A DNA stretch of 33,898 nt from Myxococcales bacterium (GCA_016191815.1 JACPVI010000089.1:1-33898), one strand, 5' to 3'. Positions 6,593-32,904 are shown, counted from the first letter of the stretch. Program-made: numbers and translations. Notes: generated by a model not told the origin, from the sequence alone.

Positions 6593-6597
6593 TCCGC

Positions 6598-11297: not shown

Positions 11298-11306
11298 GAG
11301 CCCGCC

Positions 11307-12793
<1,487 letters not shown>

Positions 12794-12794
<1 letters not shown>

Positions 12795-13414
12795 TGAGCG
12801 CGCACCCCTACGAGCTGCTCTCGGCCTTGCTCGAATACCCGGACGAGTCGGCGGTGGCCCAGGCGGAGGAGTGCCGCGCCGCGCTGGCCAAGAGGAGCCC
12901 AGAGGCCGCCTCCCAGGTGGAGGGCTTCGGCCTCTTCGCCGCCAGCGCGGAGGTGCACGAGCTGGAGGAGCTGTACGTCGGCACCTTCGACTTCGAGCCG
13001 GCCCACTGCCTGGATTTGGGCAACCAGCTCTTCGGGGAGAGCTACAAGCGCGGGAGCTTCTTGGTCTCGGTGCAAGAGGCGGTGAAGGAGGCGGGAGTGG
13101 AGTTCGGCGGGAAGCTCGCCGACCACCTCACCGTGGTGTTGCGGCTCCTCATCCGGCTGGAGCCAGCCCGGGCCCGCTCGCTGGTGGACGAGGCGGTGCT
13201 CCCGGCGGTGGACAAGGTGCTGGGGACGATGCGGGACGCCTCCAATCCCTACCGGATGCTCCTCGAGGCGGTGAAGGCGGTGCTGGCGGCGGACTACGGC
13301 ATCCAGCACATCCGCCCGGTGCCGGAGGCGCGCCCGCTCGAGCTGCCCGGAGCGGTTCCGCCGGGGCCGCCGCTTATGGCCAACCGGCACGAAGAGGAAG
13401 GGAGCGCGCGATGA
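12794..13414 (+). CDS. narJ: Nitrate reductase assembly chaperone
   Basis: The product is 206 residues, mostly helical, of the NarJ/TorD chaperone family. It has the typical N-terminal YELLSALLEYPDE and the central ELEELYVGTFDFEPAHCLDLGNQLFGE, the conserved YVxTFDFxxxxxLYLT-type region. It is expected to act in the cytoplasm, loading the molybdenum cofactor into NarG and timing membrane attachment. It overlaps narH by one base and narI by four (ATGA 13411-13414). The C-terminus is Pro-rich (PLELPGAVPPGPPL) and probably disordered. Confidence 0.92.
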
Positions 13415-14100
13415 GCTACGTCCTGTTCGGGGCCTTCCCCTATGTCGCGGTGGTGCTGCTCCTGCTCATCTCCATCCAGCGCTACCGGGTCAACCAGTTC
13501 ACCATCTCCAGTCTCTCCTCGCAGTTTCTGGAGAGCGAGAAGCTCTTCTGGGGCTCGGTGCCCTTCCACCTGGGAATCCTGGTGCTGTTCTTTGGGCACC
13601 TGATCGGCTTCCTCATCCCCCGGGAGGTGCAGCTCTTCGCCAGCTCTCCCCTGAGACTCTTGGTGCTCGAGCTGACCGGCTTCGTGGCGGCGCTGCTCTT
13701 CGCGGTGGGGCTGGTCCTGCTCATCCACCGCCGGCTCACCTCCAAGCGGCTGCGGGAAGTCACCACCTTCTCCGACTACCTGGTCTACGGGCTGCTGCTC
13801 TTCCAGGCCGCCACCGGCCTGTACATCGCGCTCTTCTTGCGCTGGGGCACCGCCTGGTACGTGCAGGTGGCGGTCCCCTACCTGCACTCGCTCTTCCTGT
13901 TCCAGCCGGACGTGGCGCGGATCAGCAGCGTGCCCGTGATGGTGCAGGCCCACATCCTGGGGGCCTTCACCCTCTTCGCGGTCTTCTCCTTCACCCGGCT
14001 GATGCACGTCCTGGTGGTGCCCATTCCTTACCTGTGGCGGCGAACCCAGCTCGTCATCTGGAACCGCGACCGCCACGCCGTCCGCAAGGTGGAGGGCTAA
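13411..14100 (+). CDS. narI: Respiratory nitrate reductase gamma subunit (cytochrome b)
   Basis: The 229-residue membrane protein has five predicted helices. The four heme-b ligand histidines are in place: H53 and H63 (PFHLGILVLFFGHLIGF) and H181 and H199 (QAHILGAFTLFAVFSFTRLMHV). It oxidises quinol on the periplasmic side and anchors NarGH. The basic C-terminal tail WRRTQLVIWNRDRHAVRK lies in the cytoplasm, as usual. It ends with TAA three bases before the next start. Confidence 0.96.
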   Translation: MSYVLFGAFPYVAVVLLLLISIQRYRVNQFTISSLSSQFLESEKLFWGSVPFHLGILVLFFGHLIGFLIPREVQLFASSPLRLLVLELTGFVAALLFAVGLVLLIHRRLTSKRLREVTTFSDYLVYGLLLFQAATGLYIALFLRWGTAWYVQVAVPYLHSLFLFQPDVARISSVPVMVQAHILGAFTLFAVFSFTRLMHVLVVPIPYLWRRTQLVIWNRDRHAVRKVEG

Positions 14101-14103
14101 GCC

Positions 14104-15645: not shown

Positions 15646-17021
15646 GCGACGCGCGCTCGGCGGCGACTCCCTGGGAAGTGAAGGGCTGGGGAGGTTGGCT
15701 CTCCCGCTGGGAGCCGGAGAACCACGCCTTCTGGCAGGCGGCCGGGAGCCGGGTGGCCTGGAGGACCTTGACGCTCACCACGGTGAGCCTGGTGCTCTCC
15801 TTCGCCACTTGGTTCGTGGTGAGCGCGCTGGTGGTCCGCCTCCCCGGAGTCGGCTTCCAGTTCGACACCATGCAGCTGTTCTGGCTCGCCGCGATGCCCG
15901 GCCTGGCGGGAGGGACGCTGCGCATCATCCACAGCTTCCTTATCCCGATGTACGGGAGCCGGCTGGTGATTGGAATCGCCACCCTGCTCAAGCTGGCTCC
16001 CTGCCTTGGCCTGGCGCTGGCGGTGATGAACCCGGCGACGCCCTTCTGGGTGTTCATGCTCCTCGCCTTCCTGGCGGGAATGGGCGGAGGGGATTTCTCC
16101 TCGTACATGCCGAGCACCAGCCTCTTCTTCCCCAAGCGGCTGCAAGGGTCGGCGCTGGGCATCCAGGCCGGGGTGGGGAACTTCGGGGTGAGCCTGGCCC
16201 AGTTCGTCACTCCGTGGATCGTGGGCTTCGCCGCCTTCGGCTCCGTGGTGGGCGGGCCGCAACTGCTCAAGAAGGGCGAGGCGCTGGCGCCCATCTGGCT
16301 GCAGAACGCGATGCTCTGGTACGTGCCGCTGCTGGTGCTGATCGGAGCCATTTGCCTCCTCATGCTCCGGAGCGTTCCGGTGAAGGCCTCCTTCCGGGAG
16401 CAGCTGGACATCTTCCGGAACAAGCACACCTGGTTCTGCACCGCCACCTACGTGATGACCTTCGGAAGCTTCTCCGGCTTCGCGGCGGCCTTTCCGCTGA
16501 TGATCAAGACCATCTACGGTGGCTTTCCGGGCGCGCCGGATCCGCTCGCCTACGCCTTTCTGGGGCCGCTGATCGGCTCGGCGACACGGGTGGGCTTCGG
16601 CTTCGTGGCGGACAAGGTGGGCGGGGCCATCCTCACCCACCTCGCGGGGCTGGCGCTGCTCATCACCAGCGTGGCGCTGGTCTTCTCCGGGGCGCTCACT
16701 CCCAGCTCGCTGGAGCAGTTCCCCCTCTTCGTGGCGCTGATGCTGACCCTCTTCCTCGCCTCCGGAGTGGGGAACGCCTCCACCTTCCGGCAGTACCCCA
16801 TCATCTTCTCCCACTCGCCGAGGCAAGGCGCCCAGGTGCTCGGCTGGACCGCCGCGGTGGCGGCCTACGGGCCGTTCGTCTTCTCCTCGCTGGTGGGGGC
16901 CTCCATCAGCAGCACCGGCTCGGCGGGCAGCTTCTTCGTCGGCGCGGCGGCCTTCTACCTGGCGGCCACCGCCATCAACTGGTGGTTCTACACGAGGAAA
17001 GGATGCGAGCGACCGTCGTAG
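15642..17021 (+). CDS. narK: Second NarK-type nitrate/nitrite transporter (E. coli NarK-like)
   Basis: The MFS protein has 459 residues and starts at GTG 15642 inside the previous stop. It aligns by eye with E. coli NarK/NarU: the cytoplasmic lead WEPENHAFWQAAGSRVAWRT, FFPKRLQGSALGIQAGVGNFGVSLAQ in TM5, LRSVPVKASFREQLDIFRNKHTW in the central loop, and LGWTAAVAAYGPFVF in TM11. Twelve helices are expected. Paired transporters of this kind usually divide nitrate import and nitrite export. The ActA frame begins at 17003, inside its last codons. Confidence 0.94.
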   Translation: MSDARSAATPWEVKGWGGWLSRWEPENHAFWQAAGSRVAWRTLTLTTVSLVLSFATWFVVSALVVRLPGVGFQFDTMQLFWLAAMPGLAGGTLRIIHSFLIPMYGSRLVIGIATLLKLAPCLGLALAVMNPATPFWVFMLLAFLAGMGGGDFSSYMPSTSLFFPKRLQGSALGIQAGVGNFGVSLAQFVTPWIVGFAAFGSVVGGPQLLKKGEALAPIWLQNAMLWYVPLLVLIGAICLLMLRSVPVKASFREQLDIFRNKHTWFCTATYVMTFGSFSGFAAAFPLMIKTIYGGFPGAPDPLAYAFLGPLIGSATRVGFGFVADKVGGAILTHLAGLALLITSVALVFSGALTPSSLEQFPLFVALMLTLFLASGVGNASTFRQYPIIFSHSPRQGAQVLGWTAAVAAYGPFVFSSLVGASISSTGSAGSFFVGAAAFYLAATAINWWFYTRKGCERPS

Positions 17022-17716
17022 CAGCCCCGGGCGCGAGCGTTGACGTGGACGGCGACGTGGACGGCGCTACTCGTCGCCGTCGCCGTCGCCGTCAACGTTC
17101 ACGACCACGACCACGACCACGTCGTTCACGAACACGTCCACAACGGCGAACGGCGAACGACGGGAAGAACGTCGGCCTTTGGAGCCTTGGCGCGCTCCGC
17201 GGAAGATGGGCGCTCCTGGCCGCCGCCTGCGCCTTTCTCGCCGGCTGCTCGGTGGGGAGCCAGCAGGGCTACGCGCCCGTGCAGCCGGTCGCCTTCTCCC
17301 ACGCGCTGCACGCGGGCGAGCACAAGCTGGACTGCCGCTATTGCCACTTCGGCGCGGAGAAGAGCCGCCACGCCGGAGTGCCTCCCCTGGAGGTGTGCAT
17401 GAATTGCCACTCCCAGGTGAAGAAGGACTCCCCGGAAGTCCAGAAGCTCGCCTCGGCCTTCGAAGCGGAGCAGCCCATCGAATGGGTGAAGGTCCACCGG
17501 CTGCCGGACCACGCGTTCTTCAGCCACGCGAGCCACCTCTCCGCCCAGGTGAAGTGCCAGAGCTGCCACGGCTCGGTGGAGACGATGGTCCGCATCGAGC
17601 AGGTGGAGCCGATGACGATGGGCTGGTGTCTCGAGTGCCACCGCTCGATGGGGAAGCCGCCTCCCGAGGCGCCGGCATCCGCTCCCCCCACCGACTGCTC
17701 CGCCTGCCACCGCTAG
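17003..17716 (+). CDS. actA: Alternative complex III pentaheme cytochrome c subunit ActA, with an odd N-terminal extension
   Basis: Five heme c motifs lie in order: CRYCH 111-115, CMNCH 132-136, CQSCH 185-189, CLECH 209-213 and CSACH 232-236. This is the hallmark of ActA, which takes electrons from quinol oxidation in ACIII on the periplasmic side. A lipoprotein signal, RGRWALLAAACAFLAGC, ends at C82. It is preceded by about 64 unexpected residues (DVDGDVDG, then a run of seven Arg and RPRPRPRR) encoded by repeat DNA. No ATG, GTG or TTG occurs in frame between the repeat and the signal peptide. The start must be ATG 17003, one of GTG 17045/17057, or non-standard. actB follows after 3 bases. 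Confidence 0.9.
   Translation: MRATVVAAPGASVDVDGDVDGATRRRRRRRQRSRPRPRPRRSRTRPQRRTANDGKNVGLWSLGALRGRWALLAAACAFLAGCSVGSQQGYAPVQPVAFSHALHAGEHKLDCRYCHFGAEKSRHAGVPPLEVCMNCHSQVKKDSPEVQKLASAFEAEQPIEWVKVHRLPDHAFFSHASHLSAQVKCQSCHGSVETMVRIEQVEPMTMGWCLECHRSMGKPPPEAPASAPPTDCSACHR
17038..17097. repeat. Large imperfect hairpin of GACGGC/GACGTG hexamer repeats
   Basis: The left arm (17038-17063, starting CGTTGACGTGGACGGCGACG) and right arm (17072-17097, ending GCCGTCGCCGTCAACG) pair at 22 of 26 positions around an 8-base loop. The two internal mismatched pairs are both TG against GC. Further simple repeats follow to about 17160: GACCAC three times, then CGGCGAA twice. The element starts 16 bases after the narK stop. 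It could act as attenuator, terminator or mRNA-stability structure between the nar and act genes. Confidence 0.75.
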
Positions 17717-17719
17717 CCC

Positions 17720-20665
17720 ATGTCCGACCGATTGCCCCAGTACTGGCAAACCCTGGCCGAACGAGCGCGGAAGCTCGACCCGGAGGAGCTGTCGCGGGAG
17801 TTCCCCGAGGAGCTGCCAGTGGGCCCTCTTCGCCAGCCCTTCTCCTTCGACCGGCGCGGCTTCTTCAAGGCGATGGGTCTTTCGGCGGCCGCCGCCCTGG
17901 CCGCCTGCCAGCGCGCCCCCAAGCAGAAGATTCTCCCCTTCGTTCGAAAGCCAGAGGAAGTCACTCCGGGCGTGCCGCTCTGGTACGCCTCCACCTGCGC
18001 CGCGTGTCCGGCGAGCTGCGGCATCCTCCTCAAGGTGCGGGACGGGCGTCCCATCAAGGTGGAGGGGAACGAGGCCCACCCGCTCTCCTCGGGCGGAGTG
18101 TGCGCCGCCGGCCAGGCCTCGCTCCTCTCGCTGTACGACGCTAGCCGGGCCCGCGGGCCCAGCTTTGGCGGCACTCCCACCAGTTGGGCGGCACTGGACG
18201 AGGCGGTGAGGCGGGGGCTCTTGGCCGCCAAGGCGCAAGGTCGCCCCATCCGGCTTCTCCTCCCGTGGGTGCTCGGCCCGTCCGCCGAGGCTGCGGTGGC
18301 GCGCTTCCTCGAGGTGTACCCCACCGCGAAGACGGTGCGCTACGAGGCGATCCCGGCGCGGGAGCCGATCGCCTCCGCGCACCGCGAGACCCACGGCGCC
18401 TTCGTGGTGCCCGACTACCGCTTCGAGAAGGCGAAAGTCATCGCCAGCTTCGGGGCGGACTTCCTCGGCACCTGGCTCTCGCCGGTGGCCTTCACCCGCC
18501 AGTACTCGGCGGGCCGCTCGCCGGAAGCGAAGCGGATGTCGAAGCACTTCCAGCTCGAAGCGGCGATGAGCCTCACCGGCAGCAATGCCGACCGCCGCCT
18601 CGTCCTCCCGCCCTCGGACTTCGCTCCGGCGCTGGGCGCGCTGGTGTCGCTACTCGCCCAGAGGTCCGCCCATCCGCAAACGGAGGCCATCGCTCCAGCC
18701 GCGCACGGCCCGCGCCCCGCGCTCTCCACCGAGGCGCTGGAGGAGGTCGCCTCCGCGCTCCTCTCCGCGCGAGGAGAGGCCCTGGTAGTGTGCGGCAGCG
18801 GCTCGCTGAGGGCCCAGCTTCTCGCCAACGCCGCCAACGAGCTGCTGGGCGCCTACGGCCACACCCTCTCGCTCGAGCTGGGCCTCCCACTCGACGGCTT
18901 GGCGCTCCCGTTCGAGGACTTCCTTGCGGAGCTTCGATCCGGCGCGGTGGGCGCTTTGGTGGCGTTGGGCGTCAACCCGGTCTACAGCCACCCCCGCGGC
19001 GAGGAGCTCTCGAGCCTCCTCTCCAAGCCGCCGCTTTCGGTGTGCGCCTCGGACCGGCTGGACGAGACCGCCGCGGCGATGGCCCACCACGCTGCCACCC
19101 ACAGTTTCCTTGAGGACTGGGGAGACGAGGAGCCGAGGAGGGGACTTTTCTCGGTGAGGCAGCCGGCGGTGGCGCCGCTGTTCGACACCCGCGGCCCCTT
19201 CGAGTCGCTGCTCGCCTGGGCCGGCATCGAGCAGGGCTGGTACGACTTCCTCCGCGCCCGCTGGGAGCGGGAAGTCTTTCCCCGCTCGGGGGCGGCCTCC
19301 TTCGAGCCCTTCTGGGAGGGAGCGGTCCAGCTCGGAGTGGCCGACCTGCCTTCGCCCGCGGAGCCGGCCTCCTTCCGCCTGGGAGGCCTGGAGCAGGCGC
19401 TCTCCGAGGCTCCGCCTCCCTCGCGCAAGGACGGCCTGGAGCTGTTCCTCTACCCCAAGGTCTCCATCGGCGATGGCTCGCTGGCCAACAACGGCTGGCT
19501 CCAGGAGCTGCCCGACCCGATCACCAAGGCCACCTGGGGAAACTACGTGCAGCTCTCGCCGCCGCTCGCGGCGTCGATGGGAATCGAAGAGGGGAGGATG
19601 CTGACGGTGAGCACCGAGGCGGGAAGCCTCACCCTTCCCGCCCAGGTGCAGGTGGGGCTCCACCCGCGAGTGGTGGCGGTGGCGCTGGGCTACGGCCGGA
19701 CAAAGGCCGGCACGGTGGCCAACGGCGTCGGGCGGAACGCCTACCCGCTCGCCACCGAGGCCGGACGGGTCTCGCTCGCCGCCTCTGGCGCGAGCCTGTC
19801 GCTGGCGGAGGGGAAGAAGAAGCTGGCCCTCTCCCAGACTCACCACTCGGCGGAGGGAAGGCCCATCGTGAAGCAGGCCTCCTTCGGGGAGCTCTTGGCC
19901 GACCCGCGGGCGGGCAACGAGGCCGAGGAATTGCCCACCCGCCGCTCGATGTGGCCTTTGCATTCCTACCTCGGCCGCCGCTGGGGAATGGCGGTGGACC
20001 TCACCGCCTGCACCGGCTGCGCCTCGTGCATCGTCTCCTGCCAGGCGGAGAACAACATCTCGGTGGTGGGCGAGGAGGAGGTCCGGCGGCGAAGGGAGAT
20101 GCACTGGCTCCGCATCGACCGCTACTACGCCGGCCCGCCCGAGGCGCCCGAGGTGGTGCATCAGCCGATGATGTGCCAGCACTGCGAGAACGCGCCCTGC
20201 GAGACGGTGTGCCCGGTGTTGGCCACGGTGCACTCCGGCGAGGGGCTGAACCAGCAAGTCTACAACCGCTGCGTCGGCACCCGCTACTGCGCCAACAACT
20301 GCCCGCCCAAGGTGCGGCGCTTCAACTGGTTCGACTACCCCCACGCGGACCCGCTGGAGCGGATGGTGCTGAACCCCGAGGTGGCGGTGCGCACCCGCGG
20401 GGTGATGGAGAAGTGCTCGATGTGCATCCAGCGCATCGAGGAGGAGAAGGCCCGGGCGAAGCGCGAGGGCAGGCCGCTGCTCGACGGCGAGGTGCGCACC
20501 GCTTGCCAGCAGAGCTGCCCGGCAAAGGCCATCGTCTTCGGAGACTTGAACGACCCCAAGAGCGAGGTGTCGCGGCTCATCCGCTTGGGCCGCGCCTACA
20601 AGCTGTTCGAGGAGCTGAACGCCGGCTCGCAGGTCTCCTACCTCACGCGGATCCGCAACACCTGA
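17720..20665 (+). CDS. actB: Alternative complex III iron-sulfur subunit ActB (fused molybdopterin-like and ferredoxin-like parts)
   Basis: The protein has 981 residues. A Tat-like signal [20 protein letters not shown] lies near 44-63. The B1 half (about 80-700) has the molybdopterin oxidoreductase fold, with [21 protein letters not shown] and a fourth Cys in GGVCAAGQ. The B2 half starts at C764: [55 protein letters not shown] and CQQSCPAKA, ligands for four clusters of which one may be [3Fe-4S]. In known ACIII the B1 part carries no molybdenum and only the B2 clusters transfer electrons. It sits between ActA and the ActC membrane subunit. Confidence 0.95.
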
Positions 20666-20669
20666 GGCC

Positions 20670-22097
20670 ATGAGCGAGTCCACCCATCTCTCCTCCCTGC
20701 GCGAGCCCTTGGTGGCCGAGCAGCGCTCGCTGCACCAGCTCACCGAGGAAATCTGCGCCCCGATGGAGCGCCGGCCGGGCGGGCTTTGGTGGGCGGCCTT
20801 CCTCCTCGCCTTCGCCGCGCTGGCGATGGGAGTGGGGATGGTGGCCTACCAAATCAAGACCGGCATCGGGGTGTGGGGGCTGAACAAGACGGTGGGCTGG
20901 GCCTTCGACATCACCAACTTCGTCTTCTGGGTGGGCATCGGCCACGCCGGGACGCTCATCTCCGCCATCCTCTTCCTCTTCCGCCAGAAGTGGCGCACCA
21001 GCATCAACCGCGCCGCCGAGGCGATGACCCTCTTCGCGGTGACGTGCGCGGCCATCTTCCCCGTCATCCACATGGGGCGGCCGTGGCTGGCCTTCTGGAT
21101 GCTCCCCTATCCCAACTCCCGCGGCAGCCTCTGGGTCAACTTCCGCTCGCCGCTGTTGTGGGACGTGTTCGCCATCTCCACCTACTTCACCATCTCCGCG
21201 GTGTTCTGGTACGTGGGGCTGGTCCCCGACCTGGCCACGGTGCGCGACCGGGCCAAGAGCAAGCTCCGGCGGCTGGTGTTCTCGGTGCTCTCCTTGGGCT
21301 GGAACGGCTCCTCGCGCACCTGGTCGCGCTACGAGACGGTGTACTTGCTGCTGGCCGGCCTGGCCACCCCGCTGGTGGTGTCGGTGCACACCATCGTCTC
21401 GATGGACTTCGCCACCTCGGTCATCCCCGGCTGGCACGCCACCCTCTTCCCGCCCTACTTCGTGGCCGGGGCCATCTTCTCCGGTTTCGCGATGGTGCTG
21501 ACCCTGATGGTCATCACCCGAAAAGTGTTCCGCCTCGAGCACCTCATCACCCGCCGGCACCTGGAAAACATGTGCAAGGTGATCATCGTCACCGGCGGCA
21601 TCGTCGGGCTGGCCTACGGCACCGAGTTCTTCACCGCCTGGTACTCGGGAAACCTCTACGAGCGCTTCGCCTTCGCCAACCGGGCCTTCGGTCCTTACGG
21701 CTGGGCCTACTGGGTGATGGTGAGCTGCAACGTGGTGGCCCCGCAGCTCTTCTGGTTCAAGCGGGTGCGCACCACTCCGGCGGTCATCTTCCTGCTCTCC
21801 TTGGCCATCAACGTGGGCATGTGGTTCGAGCGGTTCGTGATCATCGTCACCTCGCTCCACCGGGACTTCTTGCCCTCCAGTTGGGCGATGTACACCCCCA
21901 CCGTCATCGAGGTGGGGACGCTCATCGGCACCTTCGGGCTCTTCTTCACCTGCTTTTTGCTCTTCGCGAGGCTGCTCCCGGCCCTCTCCATCGGCGAGGT
22001 GAAGGCGGTGGCCGCCTACGCCCAAAGCCCCGTCGCGCAGCTCGCGGCGGCGTCCTCCGGGGAAAAGAAGCCCAAGTCGGGGAGGGCGGCGGCATGA
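20670..22097 (+). CDS. actC: Alternative complex III membrane subunit ActC (NrfD/PsrC-like)
   Basis: The membrane protein has 475 residues with about ten helices and an NrfD-type body. Recognisable parts are the N-terminal cytoplasmic segment [45 protein letters not shown], the loop [18 protein letters not shown], and [20 protein letters not shown]. These match ActC of ACIII and its PsrC/NrfD relatives, and the last two segments lie near the quinol site in those proteins. ActC and ActF form the membrane core. Its stop overlaps actD as ATGA (22094-22097). Confidence 0.95.
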
Positions 22098-22612
22098 GGC
22101 GCCTTCTGGTCGGCTACTTCGGGGAGGAGAGGCAGGTGCTCGCCGCCACCAGAGCGGTGCGCGAGGCGGGTCTGGAGGTGCACGACGTGTACACTCCCTA
22201 CGCGGTGCACGGGATGGAGGAGGCCTTGGGCCTTCGGCCAACCCGCCTCACCTGGGTGTGCTTCGGGGCCGGGCTGTTCGGGCTCCTCTTCGCGCTCTTT
22301 CTCCAGCACTACGCCTCGGCGGTGAGCTGGCCGATCAACGTGGGCGGAAAGCCGTTCCACTCGCTGCCAGCCTTCATCCCGGTGGCCTTCGAGCTGACCG
22401 TGCTCTGTGCCGGCCTTTTCACCGTGGCCGCCCTCTTCCTGAGGGTCCGGCTCTTCCCTACCACTGGGGGGACAGCCCTCCCCGGAGTCACCGACGACCG
22501 CTTCGCCCTGGCGCTCATCCCCGAGGGCCCGCGCTTCGACGAGGTGGAGGCCACCTCGCTGCTTTGCCGCCACGGCGCGCTGGAGACCAGGCTCGAGGAG
22601 GTGGCGCGATGA
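22094..22612 (+). CDS. actD: Alternative complex III subunit ActD (DUF3341)
   Basis: The 172-residue product has an N-terminal soluble part ([42 protein letters not shown] split across strands and helices) and two membrane helices ([19 protein letters not shown] and [20 protein letters not shown]). A C-terminal segment ends with [12 protein letters not shown]. The order [19 protein letters not shown] and the two-helix layout match DUF3341/ActD. It carries no cofactor motif. ATGA overlaps at both ends show a tightly coupled operon. Confidence 0.93.
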
Positions 22613-23166
22613 GGCGGCTCCTCTTCGCGGTGCTCTTTTGGGCCGGGTGCGAGCGGGACCCCACCCAGCCCAGGCATGAATTCCTCCCGGAGATGGTGGA
22701 CTCGGTCGCCTACGACAGCTTCGCTCCCAACCCGGTTACCCGCGACGGCAAGACGCTGCTCGCTCCGGCCAAGGGCACCATCCCCCGCGGGCATCAGCCG
22801 CTCCACTACGGCAAGGGAAAGGAAGAGGCCGAGCGGGCGGGGCGCGAGCTGGAAAACCCTTTGCCCGCTGGCGAGAAGGCGCTCGCCCGGGGAGCCGAGG
22901 CCTACGGAGTGTTCTGCTTCCCCTGCCACGGCAAGGCGGGGCAGGGGGACGGGCCGGTGGCAGGAAAGTTCCCCACTCCGCCTTCCTTGTCGGCCGAGCG
23001 GGCCAAAGCCCTCCCGGACGGCCAGCTCTTCCACATCATCAGCCGCGGGCAGGGAGTGATGCCGCCGCACGCCTCCCAGGTTTCGCCGGAGGACCGCTGG
23101 CGGATCGTCCATCACCTGCGGGAGCTGCAGAAGGCCGCGCCCGCCGCCGCGGGAGGTGCGAGGTGA
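22609..23166 (+). CDS. actE: Alternative complex III monoheme cytochrome c subunit ActE
   Basis: The product is a 185-residue lipoprotein. A short signal, [14 protein letters not shown], has its lipobox Cys at 14. It is followed by MVDSVAYDSFAPNP and GTIPRGHQPLHYG, typical of the ActE lead segment. The class I cytochrome c domain holds CFPCH at 103-107 and the Met ligand at M151 (GVMPPH). It is expected to pass electrons from ActA to a periplasmic partner. GTG of actF overlaps its stop. Confidence 0.93.
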   Translation: MRRLLFAVLFWAGCERDPTQPRHEFLPEMVDSVAYDSFAPNPVTRDGKTLLAPAKGTIPRGHQPLHYGKGKEEAERAGRELENPLPAGEKALARGAEAYGVFCFPCHGKAGQGDGPVAGKFPTPPSLSAERAKALPDGQLFHIISRGQGVMPPHASQVSPEDRWRIVHHLRELQKAAPAAAGGAR

Positions 23167-24311
23167 GCCTGTCCGTGGCGCTGAGCCAGACGCAAAGGCG
23201 CTACCTGTGGGCGGCCGCCGGCCTGGGCGTGCTCGCCTTCGGAGGGGGCCTCCTGTCCTCGCCCGCGCGCGCCTTCACCAGCCTGCTCGTGGCGGCCTTT
23301 CTCTTCACAAGCCTCTCCTTGGGGGCGTTGGTCTTCCTCGCGCTGATGTACCTCTCCAACGCCGGCTGGAGCGCGGCGCTCAAGCGGGTGCCGGAGGCGC
23401 TCTCCTCGTATCTGCCCTACGGAGGGTTGTCGCTCCTGTTGGTGTTGCCGGGGCTAGGCCTGCTCTACCACTGGCTTCACCCCGGAGAGGACGCGCTGCT
23501 CCAGGCCAAAGTGCCCTACCTCAACCTGCCCTTCTTCGTGGCGCGGATGGTGGGCTTCCTCCTCGTCTGGATTGGCTTCGCCTGGGCGCTGAGGCGGCAG
23601 TCGCGGGCGCAGGATGCCGACGGCTCGCCCACCCACACCCGGCGGAGCGTGGCCACCTCGGCCGCCTTCCTGGTGGTGTTCGCCATCACCTTCTCGCTCG
23701 CCAGCGTGGACTGGCTGATGAGCCTCGAGCCGCACTGGTACAGCACCATCTTCGGCCTCTACCAGATTGGCGGGGCGATGCTGGGCGGGGTGTGCGCCAT
23801 CACCGTGGCGGCGGTGCTGCTCCGCCGCGCCGGACACCTCCCCATCGGGGAGGCCCACCTCCACGATTTGGGCAAGCTCCTGTTCGGCTTCTCCACCTTG
23901 TGGGCCTACCTCTGGCTCTCGCAGTACCTCTTGGTCTGGTACGCCAACATCCCCGAGGAGACCACCCACTACCTCGCCCGCACCGAGGGCGGGTGGGGCT
24001 TTCTCTTCTACCTGAACGTGGCGCTTGGCTGGGCGGTGCCCTTCACCATGCTGTTGCCTCGGCCGGCGAAGCGCTCGGAGACCAATCTCCTCTGGGCCTG
24101 CGGCTTCTTGCTCGCGGGAAGGTGGCTGGACATCTACCTGATGGCAGGGCCGGCCGCGGCACCGGAGCATCTAGGCATCGGGCTTTTGGAGCTGGGCGTG
24201 ACCGCCGGGCTCGCGGCGGTGTTCGTCCTGGTGGTGGCGCGGGCGCTCGGTAGCGCGCCGATGGTGCCCAAGGGAGATCCGTACCTGGTGGAGAGCCTCC
24301 ACCATCACTGA
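23163..24311 (+). CDS. actF: Alternative complex III membrane subunit ActF
   Basis: The membrane protein has 382 residues with about ten helices and starts at GTG 23163 (GTGA overlap). The features VDWLMSLEPHWYSTIFGLY and FGFSTLWAYLWLSQYLLVWYANIPEET match the ActF family (quinol:cytochrome c oxidoreductase membrane subunit, relative of ActC). With ActC it forms the pseudo-symmetric membrane core of ACIII. The C-terminal SLHHH is unusual but short. The next gene starts 10 bases after the stop behind GGAGGACC. Confidence 0.93.
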   Translation: MSLSVALSQTQRRYLWAAAGLGVLAFGGGLLSSPARAFTSLLVAAFLFTSLSLGALVFLALMYLSNAGWSAALKRVPEALSSYLPYGGLSLLLVLPGLGLLYHWLHPGEDALLQAKVPYLNLPFFVARMVGFLLVWIGFAWALRRQSRAQDADGSPTHTRRSVATSAAFLVVFAITFSLASVDWLMSLEPHWYSTIFGLYQIGGAMLGGVCAITVAAVLLRRAGHLPIGEAHLHDLGKLLFGFSTLWAYLWLSQYLLVWYANIPEETTHYLARTEGGWGFLFYLNVALGWAVPFTMLLPRPAKRSETNLLWACGFLLAGRWLDIYLMAGPAAAPEHLGIGLLELGVTAGLAAVFVLVVARALGSAPMVPKGDPYLVESLHHH

Positions 24312-24321: not shown

Positions 24322-25200
24322 ATGTCATTTTCCCGGAACACCTTGTGGCTGGCGGCGCTCTGTTGCTCTGCTGCGACGGCGCAGGCGCCCTATTCGCTCC
24401 CCTTCCAGCTTCGGCCGGCGGCGGCGGGCAACGCGGTGCGCTTGGACACCGCCATCGCGATGGTGCAGGGGGTCGACGGGGCCTCCGGCTCCACGGTGGC
24501 GAGCATGCTGCTCGTGAGCTACCAGCTCGCCCCGAGCTTCGCGCCGCTCATGCGCCTGGGCTTCGTGAGCAGCGCTCCTCCGGGAGGCACCGGCGGCCAG
24601 GCGTTGGTCAACCCGGCCCTGGGAGGCACCTACGCGCTCAAGCTGAGCGAGCAGATGCGACTGGCGTTCTTCCTCGGCCTCGCCTTCCCGCTGGGGATGG
24701 GGGGAGGGGACTTCGGAGACCCCTCCTTGGCGGCGGTGTCGCGGTCGGGAGTCCTGGCGCGCTCGGCGATGGACAACGCGATGTTCGCGGTGAACGACTT
24801 CACCGTCTTCCCCGGAGTCGGCTTCGCGTACGTCTCCGGGGGGCTGACCGCGCAGGTGGAGGTCACCGTGCTGCAGCTCACCCGCGTTCGCGGGGAGCGC
24901 GTCCAGAAGGACAGCTCGAAGACGAACTTCACCTCCGGGCTTCACCTGGGCTACTTCGTGCATCCGAGCGTGTCGGTGGGCGGGGAGCTTCGCTACCAGC
25001 GGTGGCTCAGCACGCCCTCCTTGGTCACCACGCCCGACACCCGGGACAACCTCACCGCGGCGGCGGGAGTGCGAGGGCACTTCAAGCTAGGGCAGTCCAC
25101 CTGGCTGCGTCCCGCGCTCGCGGTGGCGATGCCGCTCGATGACCCGATGCGGGCGCAGGGCTACCGCATCGTGCAGCTCGACCTGCCGGTAGCCTTCTAG
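24322..25200 (+). CDS. Predicted outer-membrane beta-barrel protein of unknown function
   Basis: The 292-residue product has a signal peptide ending near SAATAQA (about 22). The rest alternates short amphipathic strands and turns (FAPLMRLGFVSS, MRLAFFLGLAFPLGMGG, VSVGGELRYQRW, WLRPALAVAMP) and ends in Phe (LDLPVAF), the usual terminal signal for BAM-dependent barrels. No heme or metal motif is seen. A good ribosome-binding site (GGAGG) and the 10-base gap place it as last gene of the nar-act transcript. It could be a porin for nitrate/nitrite or an unrelated barrel. Confidence 0.7.
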   Translation: MSFSRNTLWLAALCCSAATAQAPYSLPFQLRPAAAGNAVRLDTAIAMVQGVDGASGSTVASMLLVSYQLAPSFAPLMRLGFVSSAPPGGTGGQALVNPALGGTYALKLSEQMRLAFFLGLAFPLGMGGGDFGDPSLAAVSRSGVLARSAMDNAMFAVNDFTVFPGVGFAYVSGGLTAQVEVTVLQLTRVRGERVQKDSSKTNFTSGLHLGYFVHPSVSVGGELRYQRWLSTPSLVTTPDTRDNLTAAAGVRGHFKLGQSTWLRPALAVAMPLDDPMRAQGYRIVQLDLPVAF

Positions 25201-25275: not shown

Positions 25276-25303
25276 GTGACTCCACGGGCTTCCGTGCAGT
25301 CAC
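25276..25303. terminator. Bidirectional hairpin between convergent operons
   Basis: GTGACT-C-CACGG-GCTT-CCGTG-C-AGTCAC forms 11 base pairs with a single C:C mismatch. It overlaps the stop of the minus-strand diheme cytochrome gene (25300-25302) and lies 75 bases after the plus-strand barrel gene. A smaller hairpin, AGAGG-TGATT-CCTCT, sits at 25203-25217. Neither has a long T-run, so Rho-assisted or structural termination is likely. Confidence 0.55.
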
Positions 25304-26205
25304 TCCCAGGGCGTCTGGGGGCCGAAGAGGTAGCCGGCTACCCCGCCGGGCCTTCGCAGCGAGCGCAGGTAGTGCGCCAGCGCCCAGCGGTCGCGCTCCT
25401 CTGCGATCGACTCGCCGTAGGCGGGCATCGGCGTCCCGCTCAGTCCGGAGACCATCGTCCGGTAGAGGTCCTCCGGCCTGGCCCCGCCCCGGAAGCGCCC
25501 GGCGCCGAAGTCGGTGGGGAGAATCGGCCGGCCGAGGTCGTCGCGAAGCTCCGCGGCGGAAGGCCCGTCTCCGCGCCCAGCATCCCCGTGGCACTTGGTG
25601 CACTGTAGCTCGCGGTAGAGCACCTCGCCTCGGCGGATCAGCTCCTCGGTCGACTCCGGTGGCGCGAGCGAGTCCGCCGGCGGCACCACCCGCTCAGGCA
25701 CTTCTTCGCGGAATCGCGGGGACAGCTCCCTCAGGTACTCCACCACCTGGGCGATCTCCGCCCCGCTCAGGTGCTCCTTCCATCGCGGCATGAAGGTGCC
25801 CGGAATGCCCTCCGAGACGGTGCGGATCAAGTCCTCGGTGAGCGGCACTGCTCCGGAAGGAGTGCTCCGGAACTTGTAGTTGCCGGTGGTGAAGTCCCGC
25901 GGCGGCGGATCCAAGAAACGCGCTGCTGGCCCCTCTCCGTCTCCTCGGATGCCGTGACAGGGCGCGCAGGCCTTTCGATATAGCCGGCGGCCTTCGGACG
26001 ATGGCGCGGGCGCGGAGAGGGCGGCGGCCGTGACAGGCGTCTCGGGATTGCTCGGAGGCGGTATCGGCTCGGCCTGGGGCTTGGCCGGCGCCGGTTGCGG
26101 CCCCGGGGGAGGCTCCTCCGCCGGCTGCGCAGAGGCGCCTGCCAGCGGCAGCGAGGCCCAGAGGAGGATCAACATCGTCCGGCGGGTGGCGTGAGAGCTC
26201 TGCAT
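25300..26205 (-). CDS. Periplasmic diheme cytochrome c
   Basis: The 301-residue product has a signal peptide to about 26 (PLAGASAQ) and a Pro/Ala/Glu-rich linker to about 70. Two class I cytochrome c domains follow: CAPCH 80-84 with M139 (TFMP), and CTKCH 202-206 with M260 (TPMPAYG). It resembles soluble diheme electron carriers. It starts 13 bases after the beta-barrel heme protein gene and is the last gene of the minus-strand module. The predicted role is shuttling electrons between inner-membrane complexes such as ACIII or NarC and the outer membrane, an inference from context. Confidence 0.88.
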   Translation of the reverse strand: MQSSHATRRTMLILLWASLPLAGASAQPAEEPPPGPQPAPAKPQAEPIPPPSNPETPVTAAALSAPAPSSEGRRLYRKACAPCHGIRGDGEGPAARFLDPPPRDFTTGNYKFRSTPSGAVPLTEDLIRTVSEGIPGTFMPRWKEHLSGAEIAQVVEYLRELSPRFREEVPERVVPPADSLAPPESTEELIRRGEVLYRELQCTKCHGDAGRGDGPSAAELRDDLGRPILPTDFGAGRFRGGARPEDLYRTMVSGLSGTPMPAYGESIAEERDRWALAHYLRSLRRPGGVAGYLFGPQTPWE

Positions 26206-26218
26206 CGGCTGGTCCTGA

Positions 26219-27373
26219 TCAGAAGAACCCGTGGAGCTGCACCAGCAACAGGTCCTGGTTTCCCGCCACCTTCTGCGGAATGTCGCGGCGGAGGTGATAG
26301 GTGACGCTGGCCCGCAGGAACTGGAGCGGGAAGACGTCCAGCGAGAAATTGAAGCGCTCTCGCTGATCCTCCGGCACTGCGAGGTCCGGATCGTTGAAGT
26401 CGTAGCCCACGCGCAAGTTGAGGCCCCGGCGGATCAGCACGTCCAGCTCGCCGTAGAAGGCCCACTGCTCGCGCGATTCGGGCTCCTCCGAGGGAGATTG
26501 CCGATCGAGAACGTGGTCCGCCTCGGCCAGGATGGTGAAGCGCCCCACCGTCGCGGTGGCGAACGCGCCCCAAACCCGCCGGCTCACCTTCCGCTGCTCG
26601 GTGGAACCATCCGCGTAGGAGAAGGAAGCCCCAACCCGCCCCAGCCGCCCGACAAGCCCCGCCGAGGCGGTGAGCTGCTTGGAGAGGTTGTTGTCCAACC
26701 CCCCCTGCGTCCCGTTGGAGACCGCCACCGCCAGGAAGGTTGGCCCCGGCTCCGCGCCCAGCTCGAGGCCCAGGTCCTGGTTTCCGTAGTTGAAGCCGGT
26801 CACGTCGCGGATGAAGGCGGTGTCGTCGGCCAGCCGTAGCCCGTACGGCAAGAGGATGCGGCCCGCCTTCAAGTACCCGCGCGCCGGCAGTCCCTCGACC
26901 AGGAGGAATGCCTCCCGGCTGGCGGCGGACTCGGGAGACACCACCTCGTCCACGTACACCGAGAGCCGGTCTTCGAGGAGCTGCACCGAGAGGTAGAGGT
27001 CCGCCTCCGCAATCTTGAAGGTGCTGGTCGGCCTCGCCGTAAGCTGCTGACCCTGAAAGCTCCCCTTCGCCGCGAAGGCGGTGGAGACCTGCAGCCGAAA
27101 GTCCGCCCCCACCGACACGTGCTCGCCAAGCTGCCCGTCGAGGAAGAGGCTTCCGACGGCGGGCGCGGCCTCCTCGCGCGGCGCGGGCTTGAAGGCGGGC
27201 AGCACCACCTGGCTGTACACCCGCCCGAAGGAGTTCCTCATCCCTCCCCCGGTGCGGTTGTGGTGGCACTGACTACAAACAAAGCCCTCCCGGGCGGCGA
27301 GGTGGGGCTCGGCCCATGCCGGAACCGCCCAGACGACTACCGCGAGAAGGCCCAGCTGCCGCGCGAGCCTCAT
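26219..27373 (-). CDS. Outer-membrane beta-barrel (porin-like) protein with an N-terminal heme c motif
   Basis: The product is 384 residues. The signal peptide ends at VPAWA (about 21). Just after cleavage comes GFVCSQCHHNRTGGGMRNSFG with C33, C36 and H37, a single c-type heme site. The remainder (about 80-384) is strand-rich with alternating hydrophobic residues (DLYLSVQLLEDRLSVYVDEV, GRFTILAEADHVL, ASVTYHLRRDI) and ends in HGFF, as outer-membrane barrels do. ATG 27373 was chosen for its ATGA overlap with the upstream lipoprotein gene; an in-frame start 27 bases further up is less likely. A heme at the mouth of a barrel suggests electron entry or exit across the outer membrane. Confidence 0.82.
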   Translation of the reverse strand: MRLARQLGLLAVVVWAVPAWAEPHLAAREGFVCSQCHHNRTGGGMRNSFGRVYSQVVLPAFKPAPREEAAPAVGSLFLDGQLGEHVSVGADFRLQVSTAFAAKGSFQGQQLTARPTSTFKIAEADLYLSVQLLEDRLSVYVDEVVSPESAASREAFLLVEGLPARGYLKAGRILLPYGLRLADDTAFIRDVTGFNYGNQDLGLELGAEPGPTFLAVAVSNGTQGGLDNNLSKQLTASAGLVGRLGRVGASFSYADGSTEQRKVSRRVWGAFATATVGRFTILAEADHVLDRQSPSEEPESREQWAFYGELDVLIRRGLNLRVGYDFNDPDLAVPEDQRERFNFSLDVFPLQFLRASVTYHLRRDIPQKVAGNQDLLLVQLHGFF

Positions 27374-27855
27374 TGCCTGGCCGCTCCGAGGGAAATCCAC
27401 TGCCGGATGGCTTCAATCTGCTCGTCGGTGAGGTAGGGCGGACCGCTTCTCGGCATGCGCTCTCCCACCCGGCGAGGGTCGGTGGGGACGATCTTCACCA
27501 TCAGGTAGCTGTTCGCCGGATCCGCCGGCTTCACCCGCAAAATCTCCGGCACCTCCACGCTCGGGACGTTGATCAAGTTGTCGTGAGCGACCGCCGCCTC
27601 CAGGCTGAGCCCCTTGGGGGCGGCGGCGCCGATGTGGCACTGGGCGCAGATGGGGGTGAAGACGTTCTGCTGGATCCACCCCAGGTTGGCCCGCGGGTTG
27701 GAACCGCTGCCGGCGTCCTCGCCCGCGTCCGCCTCCCCCGCGTCGGGCAAGCCGGCGTCGAACTTGAGCGGCCGGCCGTTGAGGTCCAGGCCCTCCCCGC
27801 TGCCCACGCAGGCGGCGAGGAGGGCGATTGGGAGGGCCGCGAGCTTCCGCGACAT
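27370..27855 (-). CDS. Monoheme c-type lipoprotein
   Basis: The 161-residue product has the lipobox LLAAC with Cys at 16. A flexible Asp-Ala-Gly linker (DAGLPDAGEADAGEDAG) is typical of myxobacterial lipoproteins. Then comes the heme motif CAQCH at 70-74 and a late Met (GERMPRSGPPYL, M134) that could be the sixth ligand. The C-terminal LTDEQIEAIRQWISLGA resembles the end of small planctomycete-type cytochrome c domains. It follows the heme-binding lipoprotein gene by 10 bases and overlaps the barrel gene by 4. Confidence 0.85.
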   Translation of the reverse strand: MSRKLAALPIALLAACVGSGEGLDLNGRPLKFDAGLPDAGEADAGEDAGSGSNPRANLGWIQQNVFTPICAQCHIGAAAPKGLSLEAAVAHDNLINVPSVEVPEILRVKPADPANSYLMVKIVPTDPRRVGERMPRSGPPYLTDEQIEAIRQWISLGAARQ

Positions 27856-27865
27856 CCGCGGCAGG

Positions 27866-29488
27866 CTACTGCACCTTGGTGAAGTCCACGTCGTCCGCGT
27901 CGGGCGCCACTAGGGTGCGCTTGAACTCCACGACCCAGGTGTTGTTGGCCCACTTCCCCTCCGCCTCGTTGTTGCAGCGGCCGCAGAGGGAGGTGGAGGC
28001 CGGAGTGCGGAAGATGTAGCCCGGGGAGAGGTCTCCGGCCTGCGGCACGAAGGTCGCGTCCAGCATCGCGGTCTTCGTCCCGCGCGCGCCGATGTGGGGC
28101 GAGCCGTCCTCGTACATGTACTTGGCGAACGGAGCGCGGTTGTAGGGCGAGGGGATGCGGCTCGGGCCGTTGGAGGGGCAGCCGGTGACGTCGTTGAACC
28201 ACTCGTTCACGAAGTGGAGCATCACCTTCGAGGTGTCGCCGGTGGGCACCCTCGCCCCGTCTACCTTCTTGGAGCAGTTGGCGGTGGTCCAGCTCCACTC
28301 GTCGGACTGGCCGCTGTCGCCCTTGCGCTTCTCGTGGTCGAAGTACTGGTCGTCGTAGATGCGCAGCGCGTTGGAGCGGTAGCTCTTCCAGTGCCAGAGG
28401 TCAGCCTTCAGCCCGGCAGCGTAGGTGTACATCCGGCCCTTGCCCGAGTAGTAGTTGACGTTGCTCACCGTCACCACCGTGGCCGGATCCACCCCGCCCT
28501 TTCCCTCGAGGTGGCACAGGCCGGCGCAGCCCTTGCCCAGCCCCTGGTTGGCGTTGGCCCCGAAGTAGTCGGGGATGTTGATGTTGAACATGAGCTGCAC
28601 CCGGTCCTCGGCGCGGGTCACCGGGCGGGTGGTCTCGCGGTTGCCCGATGGGACCGGCTGGGTCTGCGCCTCGTCGCGCACCCACATCGTCCCGTCGTGC
28701 TTCCAGCGGCCGCGGTCGCTGTTCTCGGTGTTGTCGGTCCACTCGGCCCGGAAGTAGATGTTCGAGCCGTCGTAGGCCGAGCGCACCTTCACCTCGGAGA
28801 TGCCGAAGTCTTCGGTGACGATGTTCCCCACCGTGCCGTTGGTGCGGCGGTCGACGTTGATGAGCTCCGAGGCGCGCGCCAGGGAGAGGGTGGTGCTCGG
28901 CACGCCCTTCCATTCGTTGACGTCGGTGTCCGCGCCGTCCACCTTGACGGAGCCGGGGGCCACCGCCACCGAGAGCACCTGGTTCTTCGGGCTCACCGAC
29001 CAGTTGAAGTCGAGGTACACCTCCTCGGCTCCCTGCGGCGCGTCGCCGCCGTTGTTGTTCACGCCCACCGACATCTGTTTGTTGATGAGGTCGGTGCGGA
29101 TGACGCCCCCGCCCGGGCTGGCCTCGCAGGCTCCGGTGGCCGGGTTGCAGGCCTGGCCGCCGGTGCACTGCACTCCGTGGCACTTCACCGCCGAGGGCTC
29201 GCACACGCAGGTCTGCGCGTTGGCCTGGTGGCCGCTCGGGCAGGTGATGGCGGCGCAGCGCTCCTCGCACTTGCCGGTGGCGGGCAAGCACACCTCAGAG
29301 GCCCCGCAGCTCACCCCCGCGCACTTGTTGTCGCTCGCCGGCTTGCAGGTGCACGCCGCCAGGTCCTTGTCGTAGCCGGCAGGACAGGTGAGCGCCTCCT
29401 TGCAGCTCTTCTCGCAGCCCGCGACGAGCGCCGCTGCGGCGACCAGCGCCGCCGAAACCGCCGCGAATGCCCCGATTGCCTTCCGCAT
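27866..29488 (-). CDS. Lipoprotein with Cys-rich modules and an ethylbenzene-dehydrogenase-type heme-binding domain
   Basis: The product is 540 residues. ATG 29488 has a strong GGAGGG site and a lipoprotein signal ending LVAGC (C25). Residues 25-125 are repeated Cys-rich units (CPAGYDKDLAACTC; CPSGHQANAQTCVC). The body (about 145-535) matches the EB_dh/DMSO reductase-like heme-binding family: VKVDGADTDVNEWKGVP, SAYDGSNIYFRAEWTDN, EDRVQLMFNINIPD, GCAGLCHLEG and AGLKADLWHWKSYRSN. C321-x3-C325-H326 is a CX3CH site rather than CXXCH. Related subunits bind heme b between dehydrogenase and cytochrome. Here it is a free-standing outer-membrane or periplasmic lipoprotein, so the partner enzyme is unknown. 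Confidence 0.85.
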   Translation of the reverse strand: MRKAIGAFAAVSAALVAAAALVAGCEKSCKEALTCPAGYDKDLAACTCKPASDNKCAGVSCGASEVCLPATGKCEERCAAITCPSGHQANAQTCVCEPSAVKCHGVQCTGGQACNPATGACEASPGGGVIRTDLINKQMSVGVNNNGGDAPQGAEEVYLDFNWSVSPKNQVLSVAVAPGSVKVDGADTDVNEWKGVPSTTLSLARASELINVDRRTNGTVGNIVTEDFGISEVKVRSAYDGSNIYFRAEWTDNTENSDRGRWKHDGTMWVRDEAQTQPVPSGNRETTRPVTRAEDRVQLMFNINIPDYFGANANQGLGKGCAGLCHLEGKGGVDPATVVTVSNVNYYSGKGRMYTYAAGLKADLWHWKSYRSNALRIYDDQYFDHEKRKGDSGQSDEWSWTTANCSKKVDGARVPTGDTSKVMLHFVNEWFNDVTGCPSNGPSRIPSPYNRAPFAKYMYEDGSPHIGARGTKTAMLDATFVPQAGDLSPGYIFRTPASTSLCGRCNNEAEGKWANNTWVVEFKRTLVAPDADDVDFTKVQ

Positions 29489-29522: not shown

Positions 29523-29538
29523 AGCAACCCGCGCGCCA
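29523..29538 (-). promoter_or_regulatory. Near-consensus sigma-54 promoter for the four-gene cytochrome/barrel operon
   Basis: On the minus strand, TGGCGCGCGGGTTGCT differs from the consensus TGGCACG-N4-TTGCW at one defined position. GG is at 29537-29536, then 10 bases, then GC at 29525-29524. Transcription would begin near 29512, giving a 24-base leader that contains the GGAGGG ribosome-binding site before ATG 29488. Confidence 0.75.
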
Positions 29539-29613: not shown

Positions 29614-29643
29614 GGTGGCGCTTCCGCCACCGGGAGGGTGGCG
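29614..29643. promoter_or_regulatory. Inverted and direct GGTGGCG repeats: possible enhancer and/or terminator
   Basis: A perfect palindrome GGTGGCG-CTTC-CGCCACC (29614-29631) is followed by another direct GGTGGCG (29637-29643). It lies 20-50 bases after the stop of the NtrC-type regulator gene and about 80-100 bases upstream of the sigma-54 promoter at 29523-29538. That is a normal distance for an activator site. It could equally end the regulator transcript, as no T-run is present to decide. Confidence 0.45.
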
Positions 29644-29662
29644 GTTGGCAGCGGAAGTTTGG

Positions 29663-31050: not shown

Positions 31051-31054
<4 letters not shown>

Positions 31055-32904
31055 GAGGGGGGGCCTCCGGGAAGGTGGATGTGCACCGCCAGCCCGCCCC
31101 CCGGCCGGTTCTCCAGGGTGAGCGAGCCGCCGTGGTTTCCCACGATGTGCCTGGCGATGGGCAGGCCGAGCCCGGTGCCCTCGGGCTTGCTGCTGAAGAA
31201 AGGCTCGAACACGCGCGGGAGGAGCCCGTCGGGAATCCCCGGCCCGTTGTCCACGATGTCGATGGCCACCCCGCGCCGCGCGTCCGGCCGCACCGCCACT
31301 TCCACCTCCGCTCCGCTCCTCGCGTCTGCTTCGAAGGCCTGCACCGAGTTGAGCAGGAGGTTGAGCAAGGCCTCGTTGATCAGCGCCGCGTCGCCGAGGC
31401 AGACGCAGGGCACTCCGGGGTAGTGCTCCACCAGCCGGATTCCCCGCCGGTAGGCGCCCGGGCGGACCAGGTCCACCGCGTCGCGCACCACCCGAGACAG
31501 CTCCACCGGCACCACCTCGGGCTGGACCGGCCGCGAGAGGCGGAGCAGGCGGCTCACCAGAGTCTCCATCCGCTCGATGGAGGCGAGCGCCACCTCCAGC
31601 GATCGTGGGTCTCCGCTCCCGGCCTTTTGCTCCGCCCACACCTGGAGGATGAGCTTGGTGCTGGTGGCGGCGTTGCGGACCTCGTGGGCTACTGCGGCGG
31701 CCAGCTCTCCGGCGGTGGCGAGCCGGCCGGCGCGGGAGGCCTGCTCCTCGGCGCTCCGCCGGGCGGTGACGTCGGTGATCATCTCGATCGCCCGGACCTC
31801 CAGGCCTCCGTTGCGGATCGGCACCGCCACGTGCTCCAGCCAGCGCGTGGCCCCGCCCTGCTCGATGACTTGAAGCTGGGTGCGCTGGCAGCCCTCGAGC
31901 ACCGCCCTCCTCGCCGCGCACTGCTCGCCCTGGGTGGGGCAACCCCAGGCCTCCCAGCAGCGCTTGCCGCAGGGGTCGGCGCACCCTCCCAGGAGCGCGC
32001 GGAACTGGCGGCTGGCGTAGAGGACTTTCGCCTCGGCGTCGAGCAGTACGAAGGCGCTGGGCGCCTCGTCGAGCACCGTGGAGAGCAGCTCTCGCTCCTG
32101 CCGAAGCTCCAGGGTGCGCTGCTGCACCGTCTCTTCCAGGTTTGCGACGGTGCGGGCGAGGGCCGTCTCCAGCCGCTCCTGCTGCTCGCGCTCCGCTTGG
32201 ACCAGGCGAGAGGCGCGCCGCGAGACGGCGAGGAGCAGCGCTCCCAAGGCCACCAGCACGAAAGCCGAGCCGAGGGCCACCACCCAGGCGACGTCCCGCA
32301 TGCCCAGGCTCATCGCGCCCACGCTCTGGTACACCTCGAAGGCGCCGGCGATGTCCCCGGAGGGCTTCCCGTCCGCGCCCAGCGCCCGGAGCGGCACGTA
32401 GGTTTCCAGGAAGTCCTCGGAGTGGCTGCCTTCGTCGAAGTCGGACTCGTCGGCGCTCTCCACGTCGGAGACCGCTCCGCCGGCCAGTGCCCTCTCCAGC
32501 TTGCGGTTGCCCAAGGAGGGCCGCGGGGCGAGGCCCGGCTCGGTGGAGTACACCAGGGTGCCGTCGCGGGAGAAGATGTTGATCCGCTCCACATCGAGGT
32601 AGCGGAGGTAGCGGCGGGTGATGCGGTCCACCTCGGGCGAGAGGCCCTTTTGCTCCCACTCCGCCGGTGGGGGAGGATGTCCGCCACGCTGCCGGAGGGC
32701 CTTGAGCAGGTCCTCGTTCAGGTTGGAGGCCAGGTCGATGGCGTGGCGCTGCCAGTCGAGCAGGTACTGGTGCCGCACCACCAGGTAGAAGGCGGCGCTG
32801 GTGGCGGCGACGAAGAGCGGGAGAAGCAGGAGGTAGTAGCGCGCGCTGAGGCGGAGCACGTCTACCTTGGCGTCGGTGCGCGGGGTGGAGGGTGAGGGCG
32901 ACAC
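31051..32904 (-). CDS. Sensor histidine kinase with periplasmic domain and Cys-rich PAS
   Basis: The protein has 617 residues with a GTG start. TM1 is at about 23-43, a periplasmic sensor at about 44-204 (Cache/dCache-like in size and strand content), and TM2 at about 205-227, followed by a coiled segment to 275. A PAS domain (about 275-390) has six cysteines: C308, C312, C316, C322, C329 and C339. The H-box AAAVAHEVRN has H407; the N-box is near N515/N519; glycine motifs are DNGPG 552-556 and GTGLGL 576-581. The Cys spacing suggests a metal, Fe-S or redox-sensitive PAS. It is paired with the regulator at 29663-31054. The upstream 200 bases show no sigma-54 promoter. Confidence 0.93.

Follow-up and report, generated by a model that had tools for sequence, protein, structure and literature searches.

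A four-gene operon encoding a heme-bearing OprP-like porin, two further cytochromes and an altered EB_dh lipoprotein in a Myxococcales bacterium: a candidate low-heme outer-membrane redox module

The operon and its promoter

The DNA analysed is a stretch of 33,898 nucleotides from a Myxococcales bacterium (GCA_016191815.1 JACPVI010000089.1:1-33898), referred to below in its full length as the window, and the subject is a set of four genes on its minus strand at 25300–29488, called A, B, C and D in gene order. Gene A (27866–29488) encodes a 540-residue lipoprotein whose N-terminal region is rich in Cys and whose residues 193–537 form an EB_dh-fold domain, gene B (27370–27855) a 161-residue lipoprotein that is probably a monoheme c-type cytochrome, gene C (26219–27373) a protein of 384 residues in which an N-terminal monoheme domain is fused to a 16-stranded porin, and gene D (25300–26205) a 301-residue periplasmic diheme cytochrome c. 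The lipoboxes of A and B and the signal peptides of C and D were assigned by reading the sequence. A and B are 10 bp apart, the start codon of C overlaps the stop codon of B (ATGA) and 13 bp separate C from D. Open reading frames, Pfam matches and motifs agree with the positions and gene contents given in a first-pass annotation of this DNA, which had proposed a four-gene outer-membrane electron conduit here.

A sigma-54-type promoter, TGGCGCGCGGGTTGCT, is located at 29523–29538 on the minus strand, 50 bp 5' of the ATG of A. It is the sole match in the window to TGGCRYN5TTGCW, where 0.08 would be expected, and a comparable site lies 5' of A in another locus (L022). Directly upstream and on the same strand are genes for an NtrC-type sigma-54 response regulator (29663–~31060, start approximate; Response_reg, Sigma54_activat at E=8.7e-61, HTH_8) and a sensor histidine kinase with a PAS domain (31051–32904; HisKA, HATPase_c, PAS_4). 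An NtrC/histidine kinase pair is found just upstream of A in two further loci as well (L025 and L071). The inverted repeat CCGCCACC-N5-GGTGGCGG at 29624–29644, to which no strand is assigned, may be an activator binding site. The earlier statement that the operon has its own sigma-54 promoter and two-component system thus stands. A–D form one operon behind this promoter and regulator pair, and their assembly by chance is unlikely given the comparative gene-neighbourhood data described below. The adjacent pair would act on the promoter and switch A–D on after some signal.

The porin protein and its relation to Cyc2

Protein C holds a single CXXCH, the CSQCH at residues 33–37 (27263–27277, minus strand), roughly 12 residues past the predicted signal peptide. 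An AlphaFold2 model, built from an alignment of C and 65 relatives (66 members), reached a mean pLDDT of 90.8 and a pTM of 0.86 with about 16 strands in DSSP. The top structural matches to the model were OprP and OprO (Foldseek E=1.3e-12), and VIA-align gave Z=26.8 with an rmsd of 2.4 over 291 residues for OprP and Z=26.6 for OprO. This match spans residues 76–384, leaving the heme domain outside it. With the single sequence of C, Pfam returned Porin_4 alone, at a weak 0.0047, and phmmer against the PDB returned no match. According to the model, C is a 16-stranded OprP/OprO-like porin with a one-heme N-terminal domain, which bears out the initial prediction of a beta-barrel with a heme motif after its signal peptide. 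The heme domain would most likely sit at the periplasmic mouth of the barrel. Relatives of C are found in Myxococcota, Proteobacteria, Gemmatimonadota, Nitrospirota, Bacteroidota and others.

This architecture has a precedent in Cyc2, a characterised protein in which a monoheme cytochrome is joined to an OprO/OprP-like porin of 16 strands; its published models used OprP and OprO as templates, and its single N-terminal heme is described as plugging the barrel at the periplasmic mouth (PMC8406198). C shares with Cyc2 the signal peptide, the one N-terminal CXXCH, the OprP/OprO-like barrel of 16 strands and a remotely homologous heme domain, but it lacks both Cyc2 consensus motifs. In place of AXPXFAR[Q/K][T/Y] upstream of the CXXCH, C reads AEPHLAAREG, and PXFAR[QK][TY] was seen in 0 of 66 family members; the PXL that follows shortly after the CXXCH in Cyc2 was likewise seen in 0 of 66, and C has HNRTGGGMR at that place. 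All 66 aligned members carry instead CHxNxxGGGxR, which forms the family signature CxxCHxNxxGGGxR together with the heme motif. In hhalign comparisons, whose E-values refer to one comparison each, the whole C family matched Cyc2-motif proteins with a probability of 96.2% (E=2.5e-9) and the heme region with 97.7%, or 96.2% once the signal peptide was removed; family B, taken as a control, reached 10.9%. From these profiles the heme domain of C is a remote homologue of that of Cyc2. Since none of the 66 members has the Cyc2 motifs and all have CHxNxxGGGxR, sequence places C outside the Cyc2 family, in a separate and broad monoheme cytochrome-porin family that is also set apart by its dedicated upstream lipoprotein cytochrome, B. 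The family is apparently undescribed: no description of it was found in the literature covered, which is weak evidence of novelty given the many subscription papers outside the coverage.

With a self-made 37-residue consensus, modelled on the published motif, as query, Cyc2-motif proteins were found in 42 of 193 Myxococcota genomes, the genome of the window included. There, on contig C27 (L172), a relative of D (37%) precedes the Cyc2-like gene and a five-heme protein follows it. On contig C33 (L031) of the same genome a paralogue of C (33%) is found with a paralogue of D (42%) and a five-heme protein. C and Cyc2 thus interchange beside D, which is the best evidence that the two do similar work. 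The row at L172, comprising the D-like diheme protein, the Cyc2-like barrel, a small membrane protein and the five-heme cytochrome, is a second candidate outer-membrane electron module of this genome.

Proteins A, B and D

Protein A has a lipobox (...ALVAGC), 23 Cys and a clear match to Pfam EB_dh (PF09459, E=2.1e-29, 103.7 bits against a cut-off of 33.3, profile positions 4–212 of 236), in line with its earlier description as a Cys-rich lipoprotein with an EB_dh-type domain. Its score against TIGR03477 was 15.9 bits, below the cut-off of 169.85. Searching the PDB with the single sequence by phmmer gave no match and a family profile was needed; the profile of six homologues found NxrC best (7b04_C, 4.9e-8) and the gamma subunit of EBDH weakly (2ivf_C, 0.017). 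Heme b is ligated in NxrC by Met155 and Lys305 (PMC8387239). Met353 of A (28430–28432, minus strand), invariant in the A family, aligns with the former ligand (NxrC RMGDRQKPVNLWHWK versus A RMYTYAAGLKADLWHWK; in A, RM...DLWHWK). By alignment, the C-terminal strand that bears the lysine in NxrC (K305, GQKNIS) is missing from A: the EB_dh match stops at 212 of 236 and all A homologues stop at the same point. A permuted copy of this strand may be present at the N terminus of A.

A CX3CH motif, on which the first-pass annotation was silent, lies at residues 321–326 (CAGLCH; 28511–28528, minus strand). It is shared without exception by the six aligned A homologues and is the proposed covalent heme c site. 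We infer that A has switched from a b-type to a c-type heme, with His326 and Met353 as its ligands. In a fusion of a diheme cytochrome with an EB_dh domain from a groundwater genome (L122, below) the canonical last strand with its lysine is kept and that domain has no CX3CH. Compared with the gamma subunits of type II DMSO reductases (EBDH gamma and NxrC), A therefore shows the same fold and the same position of the methionine ligand, but differs in lacking the heme-b lysine strand, in having CX3CH, in being a lipoprotein and in being paired with B and a barrel rather than with a molybdoenzyme. Relatives of family A were absent from a scan of viral contigs and a PHROGs search gave no match. 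Literature connecting EB_dh proteins with the outer membrane or with extracellular electron transfer was not found, within limited coverage of subscription papers.

Protein B, with lipobox ...LLAAC and heme motif CAQCH, is a monoheme lipoprotein as first described. The family (31 homologues) has an invariant Met134 within GxxMP, W153 and GA157-158. Its members carry CX2CH, CX3CH or CX4CH at one and the same position, and these spacing variants suggest that CX3CH, too, acts as a heme motif in this system. Cytochrome c models of Pfam matched B below cut-off only (7.9e-4); the core of its AlphaFold2 model has pLDDT values mostly above 80–90. A and B most likely hold one covalent heme each. Protein D, with a signal peptide, two CXXCH and two cytochrome c domains (Pfam E=5.6e-23), is the periplasmic diheme cytochrome it had been taken for. 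Like the Cyc1-type periplasmic cytochromes (PMC7029218) it is diheme and encoded beside a monoheme barrel, the likeness being one of heme count and gene position.

Gene neighbourhoods in other genomes

Neighbourhoods of the C family were examined in 80 loci from a contig scan, with phyla taken from record titles and heuristic gene calls. B is directly upstream of C in 46 of the 75 loci with room for it, and such B–C loci come from Myxococcota, alpha-, beta- and gammaproteobacteria, Gemmatimonadota, Marinimicrobia, Fibrobacterota and others. C without an upstream B is seen in Bacteroidota, Ignavibacteria and most Nitrospirota loci. By gene order, B is the constant partner of C. D adjoins C in 21 of the 80 loci, mainly from Myxococcota, other deltaproteobacterial metagenome-assembled genomes, Marinimicrobia and Fibrobacterota. 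The exact A–B–C–D order was not found in close relatives, where B–C–D occurs without A, and A–B with another barrel.

Every strong match to A in 10 other genomes (two families, one order) adjoins B and this second type of barrel, C'. A and B are even encoded in a single reading frame in two loci, L074:6386-8122(-) and L075:1848-4262(+). The barrels C and C' are related (hhalign 90.8%) despite the different position of the heme. In the C' barrels (L021–L025, L071–L075) the CXXCH is not N-terminal but forms part of the barrel sequence (DVHxxxxxxAKACFSCHG), where it seems to occupy a loop connecting early strands; no family model matched the one C' examined. A decaheme cytochrome of the OmcA/MtrC family is encoded directly upstream of the A–B–barrel genes in L024 (281.7 bits, cut-off 209.3) and, by Pfam, a similar decaheme beside them in L073.

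The only other locus found to hold A, B, C and D together is L122, from a deltaproteobacterial groundwater metagenome-assembled genome. On one strand it encodes a histidine kinase, an NtrC regulator, B, an A-type EB_dh lipoprotein with the CX3CH and two other genes, continuing with B, C, D, a bd-oxidase-like subunit, two cytochromes and the diheme-EB_dh fusion. The first-pass expectation that the genes would co-occur elsewhere is accordingly borne out in modular form, as B–C, B–C–D and A–B–barrel, with all four genes and the regulator pair in L122. Fusions of a D-type diheme protein and EB_dh were seen at L122:14455-15975 and, by eye, at L104:4519-6195, near a bd-like oxidase subunit and small cytochromes c.

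In L077, B–C–D is followed by Rieske- and cytochrome b-like genes, read from the sequence, and an eight-heme protein. Proteins with eight to nine hemes (~740–850 residues) recur near B–C–D in Myxococcota (L027, L028, L083, L085, L088–L091 and L100). Several cytochrome c models match the multiheme proteins of L028 (SoxX-like) and L077, none of them covering the whole protein.

Respiratory genes in the window

The plus strand of the window carries an operon at 6802–17021 for a diheme cytochrome, narG, narH, narJ, narI and two NarK-like transporters. The matches to narG (1516 bits) and narH (633 bits) are both above cut-off, and narI was identified by eye. A separate histidine kinase/NtrC pair is found near it at 3760–6706. 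No molybdoenzyme catalytic or Fe-S subunit is adjacent to A, as had been noted for a catalytic dehydrogenase; the molybdoenzyme of the window, NarGHJI, is 15 kb from the operon. A role for A as heme subunit of this nitrate reductase is ruled out, NarI being present in a complete NarGHJI. The genes at ~17000–24311 (plus strand), from a five-heme ActA-like to an ActF-like protein and including a cytochrome c, are presumably those of an alternative complex III, going by their order. They are followed by a gene for a predicted beta-barrel protein of 292 residues (24322–25200), convergent with the A–D operon.

Discussion

Taken together, A–D probably constitute a low-heme outer-membrane redox module of Cyc2 architecture, arranged round a heme-plugged porin. 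Electrons would be passed in the order D–C–B–A or the reverse. D with its two hemes would exchange them with both C and the cytochrome pool of the periplasm, from which the nitrate reductase chain and the alternative complex III of the neighbouring genes could be reached. A and B would form the partner side of the barrel, with B touching C and A touching B, a role suggested by their conserved adjacency and by the A–B fusions. Such a module resembles MtrCAB and other porin-cytochrome conduits in combining an outer-membrane barrel with cytochromes, but its barrel has 16 strands instead of 26 and its proteins one or two hemes each instead of the ten of decahemes. No A–D protein has more than two CXXCH, and the contrast with MtrCAB-type conduits drawn in the first-pass annotation is upheld. 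Its proposal of a low-heme electron route across the outer membrane gains from the porin fold and the recurrent modules; a precedent it had not considered exists, however, in Cyc2 (PMC8406198).

Several observations weigh against this interpretation. The single heme of the barrel provides no continuous wire across the membrane, so that B would have to extend into the barrel or a substrate would have to come into the pore, the latter having been proposed for Cyc2; a meeting with a partner or substrate within the pore, in the manner of Cyc2, is just as likely as continuous electron passage. A usually adjoins a different barrel, its link with C coming from the window and L122. The CX3CH of A is a non-standard heme motif. 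The model of B has no significant PDB match (the top Foldseek matches are mostly cytochromes, E >= 0.67), so its fold is assigned from motifs. The barrel parts of C and Cyc2 show no significant sequence alignment (hhalign 0.8%), although porin sequences diverge fast. RuBisCO was not found in the genome of the window, so lithoautotrophic growth is not indicated; the result speaks against Calvin-cycle autotrophy with a donor of this kind but does not contradict electron uptake itself.

By analogy with Cyc2, the direction leans slightly towards uptake of electrons from a soluble or pore-accessible donor. The opposite direction, in which the operon would pass electrons outward to extracellular acceptors, seems somewhat unlikely to us. 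It would fit the OmcA/MtrC-family decaheme in L024 and the similar one in L073, the lipoprotein nature of A and B, and the OmcA/MtrC-like proteins encoded elsewhere in the genome. Cyc2, the closest characterised barrel architecture, works inward, however, a single barrel heme is too short for the membrane and many B–C loci encode no multiheme protein at all.

A reading of C as no more than a divergent Cyc2, in an operon for ordinary Fe(II) oxidation, is unlikely. The architecture is the same, the heme domains are remotely homologous and the diheme D recalls Cyc1, but the lack of both Cyc2 motifs in all 66 members of the C family and the separate Cyc2-like gene in the genome speak against this reading. 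To our knowledge, A and B have no part in published Cyc2 pathways. We consider it improbable that C is a porin for transport whose heme has a structural, gating or redox-sensing role, without any respiratory electron flow: the OprP-like barrel and the wide occurrence of B–C at loci without evident respiratory neighbours would suit such a function, which is opposed by the adjacent cytochromes B and D, by the sharing of D with a Cyc2-like gene and by relatives beside quinol-oxidising (L077) and oxidase (L122) genes. That A is the free-standing heme subunit of a molybdoenzyme encoded elsewhere, of the EBDH, NXR or chlorate reductase type, with B–C–D merely co-operonic, is very improbable, since despite its EB_dh fold, the best PDB match to NxrC and the DMSO-reductase-family NarGH in the window, NarGH has its own NarI, A has CX3CH and no heme-b lysine strand, and A consistently adjoins B and a barrel and is fused to B in two genomes.

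Extending the preferred reading of a Cyc2-architecture module, we tentatively suggest that C may represent a second phylum-spanning class of fused cytochrome-porin with a dedicated B, which in myxobacteria could be extended outward by an EB_dh protein rebuilt from b- to c-type, giving a path of about five hemes across the outer membrane. This raises the question of how a one-heme barrel passes electrons to partners outside the cell. Gene searches for extracellular electron transfer target multiheme clusters or the Cyc2 motif; the C family has neither and would probably be missed by such screens. If the C family does move electrons, more organisms would come to be suspected of outer-membrane electron exchange.

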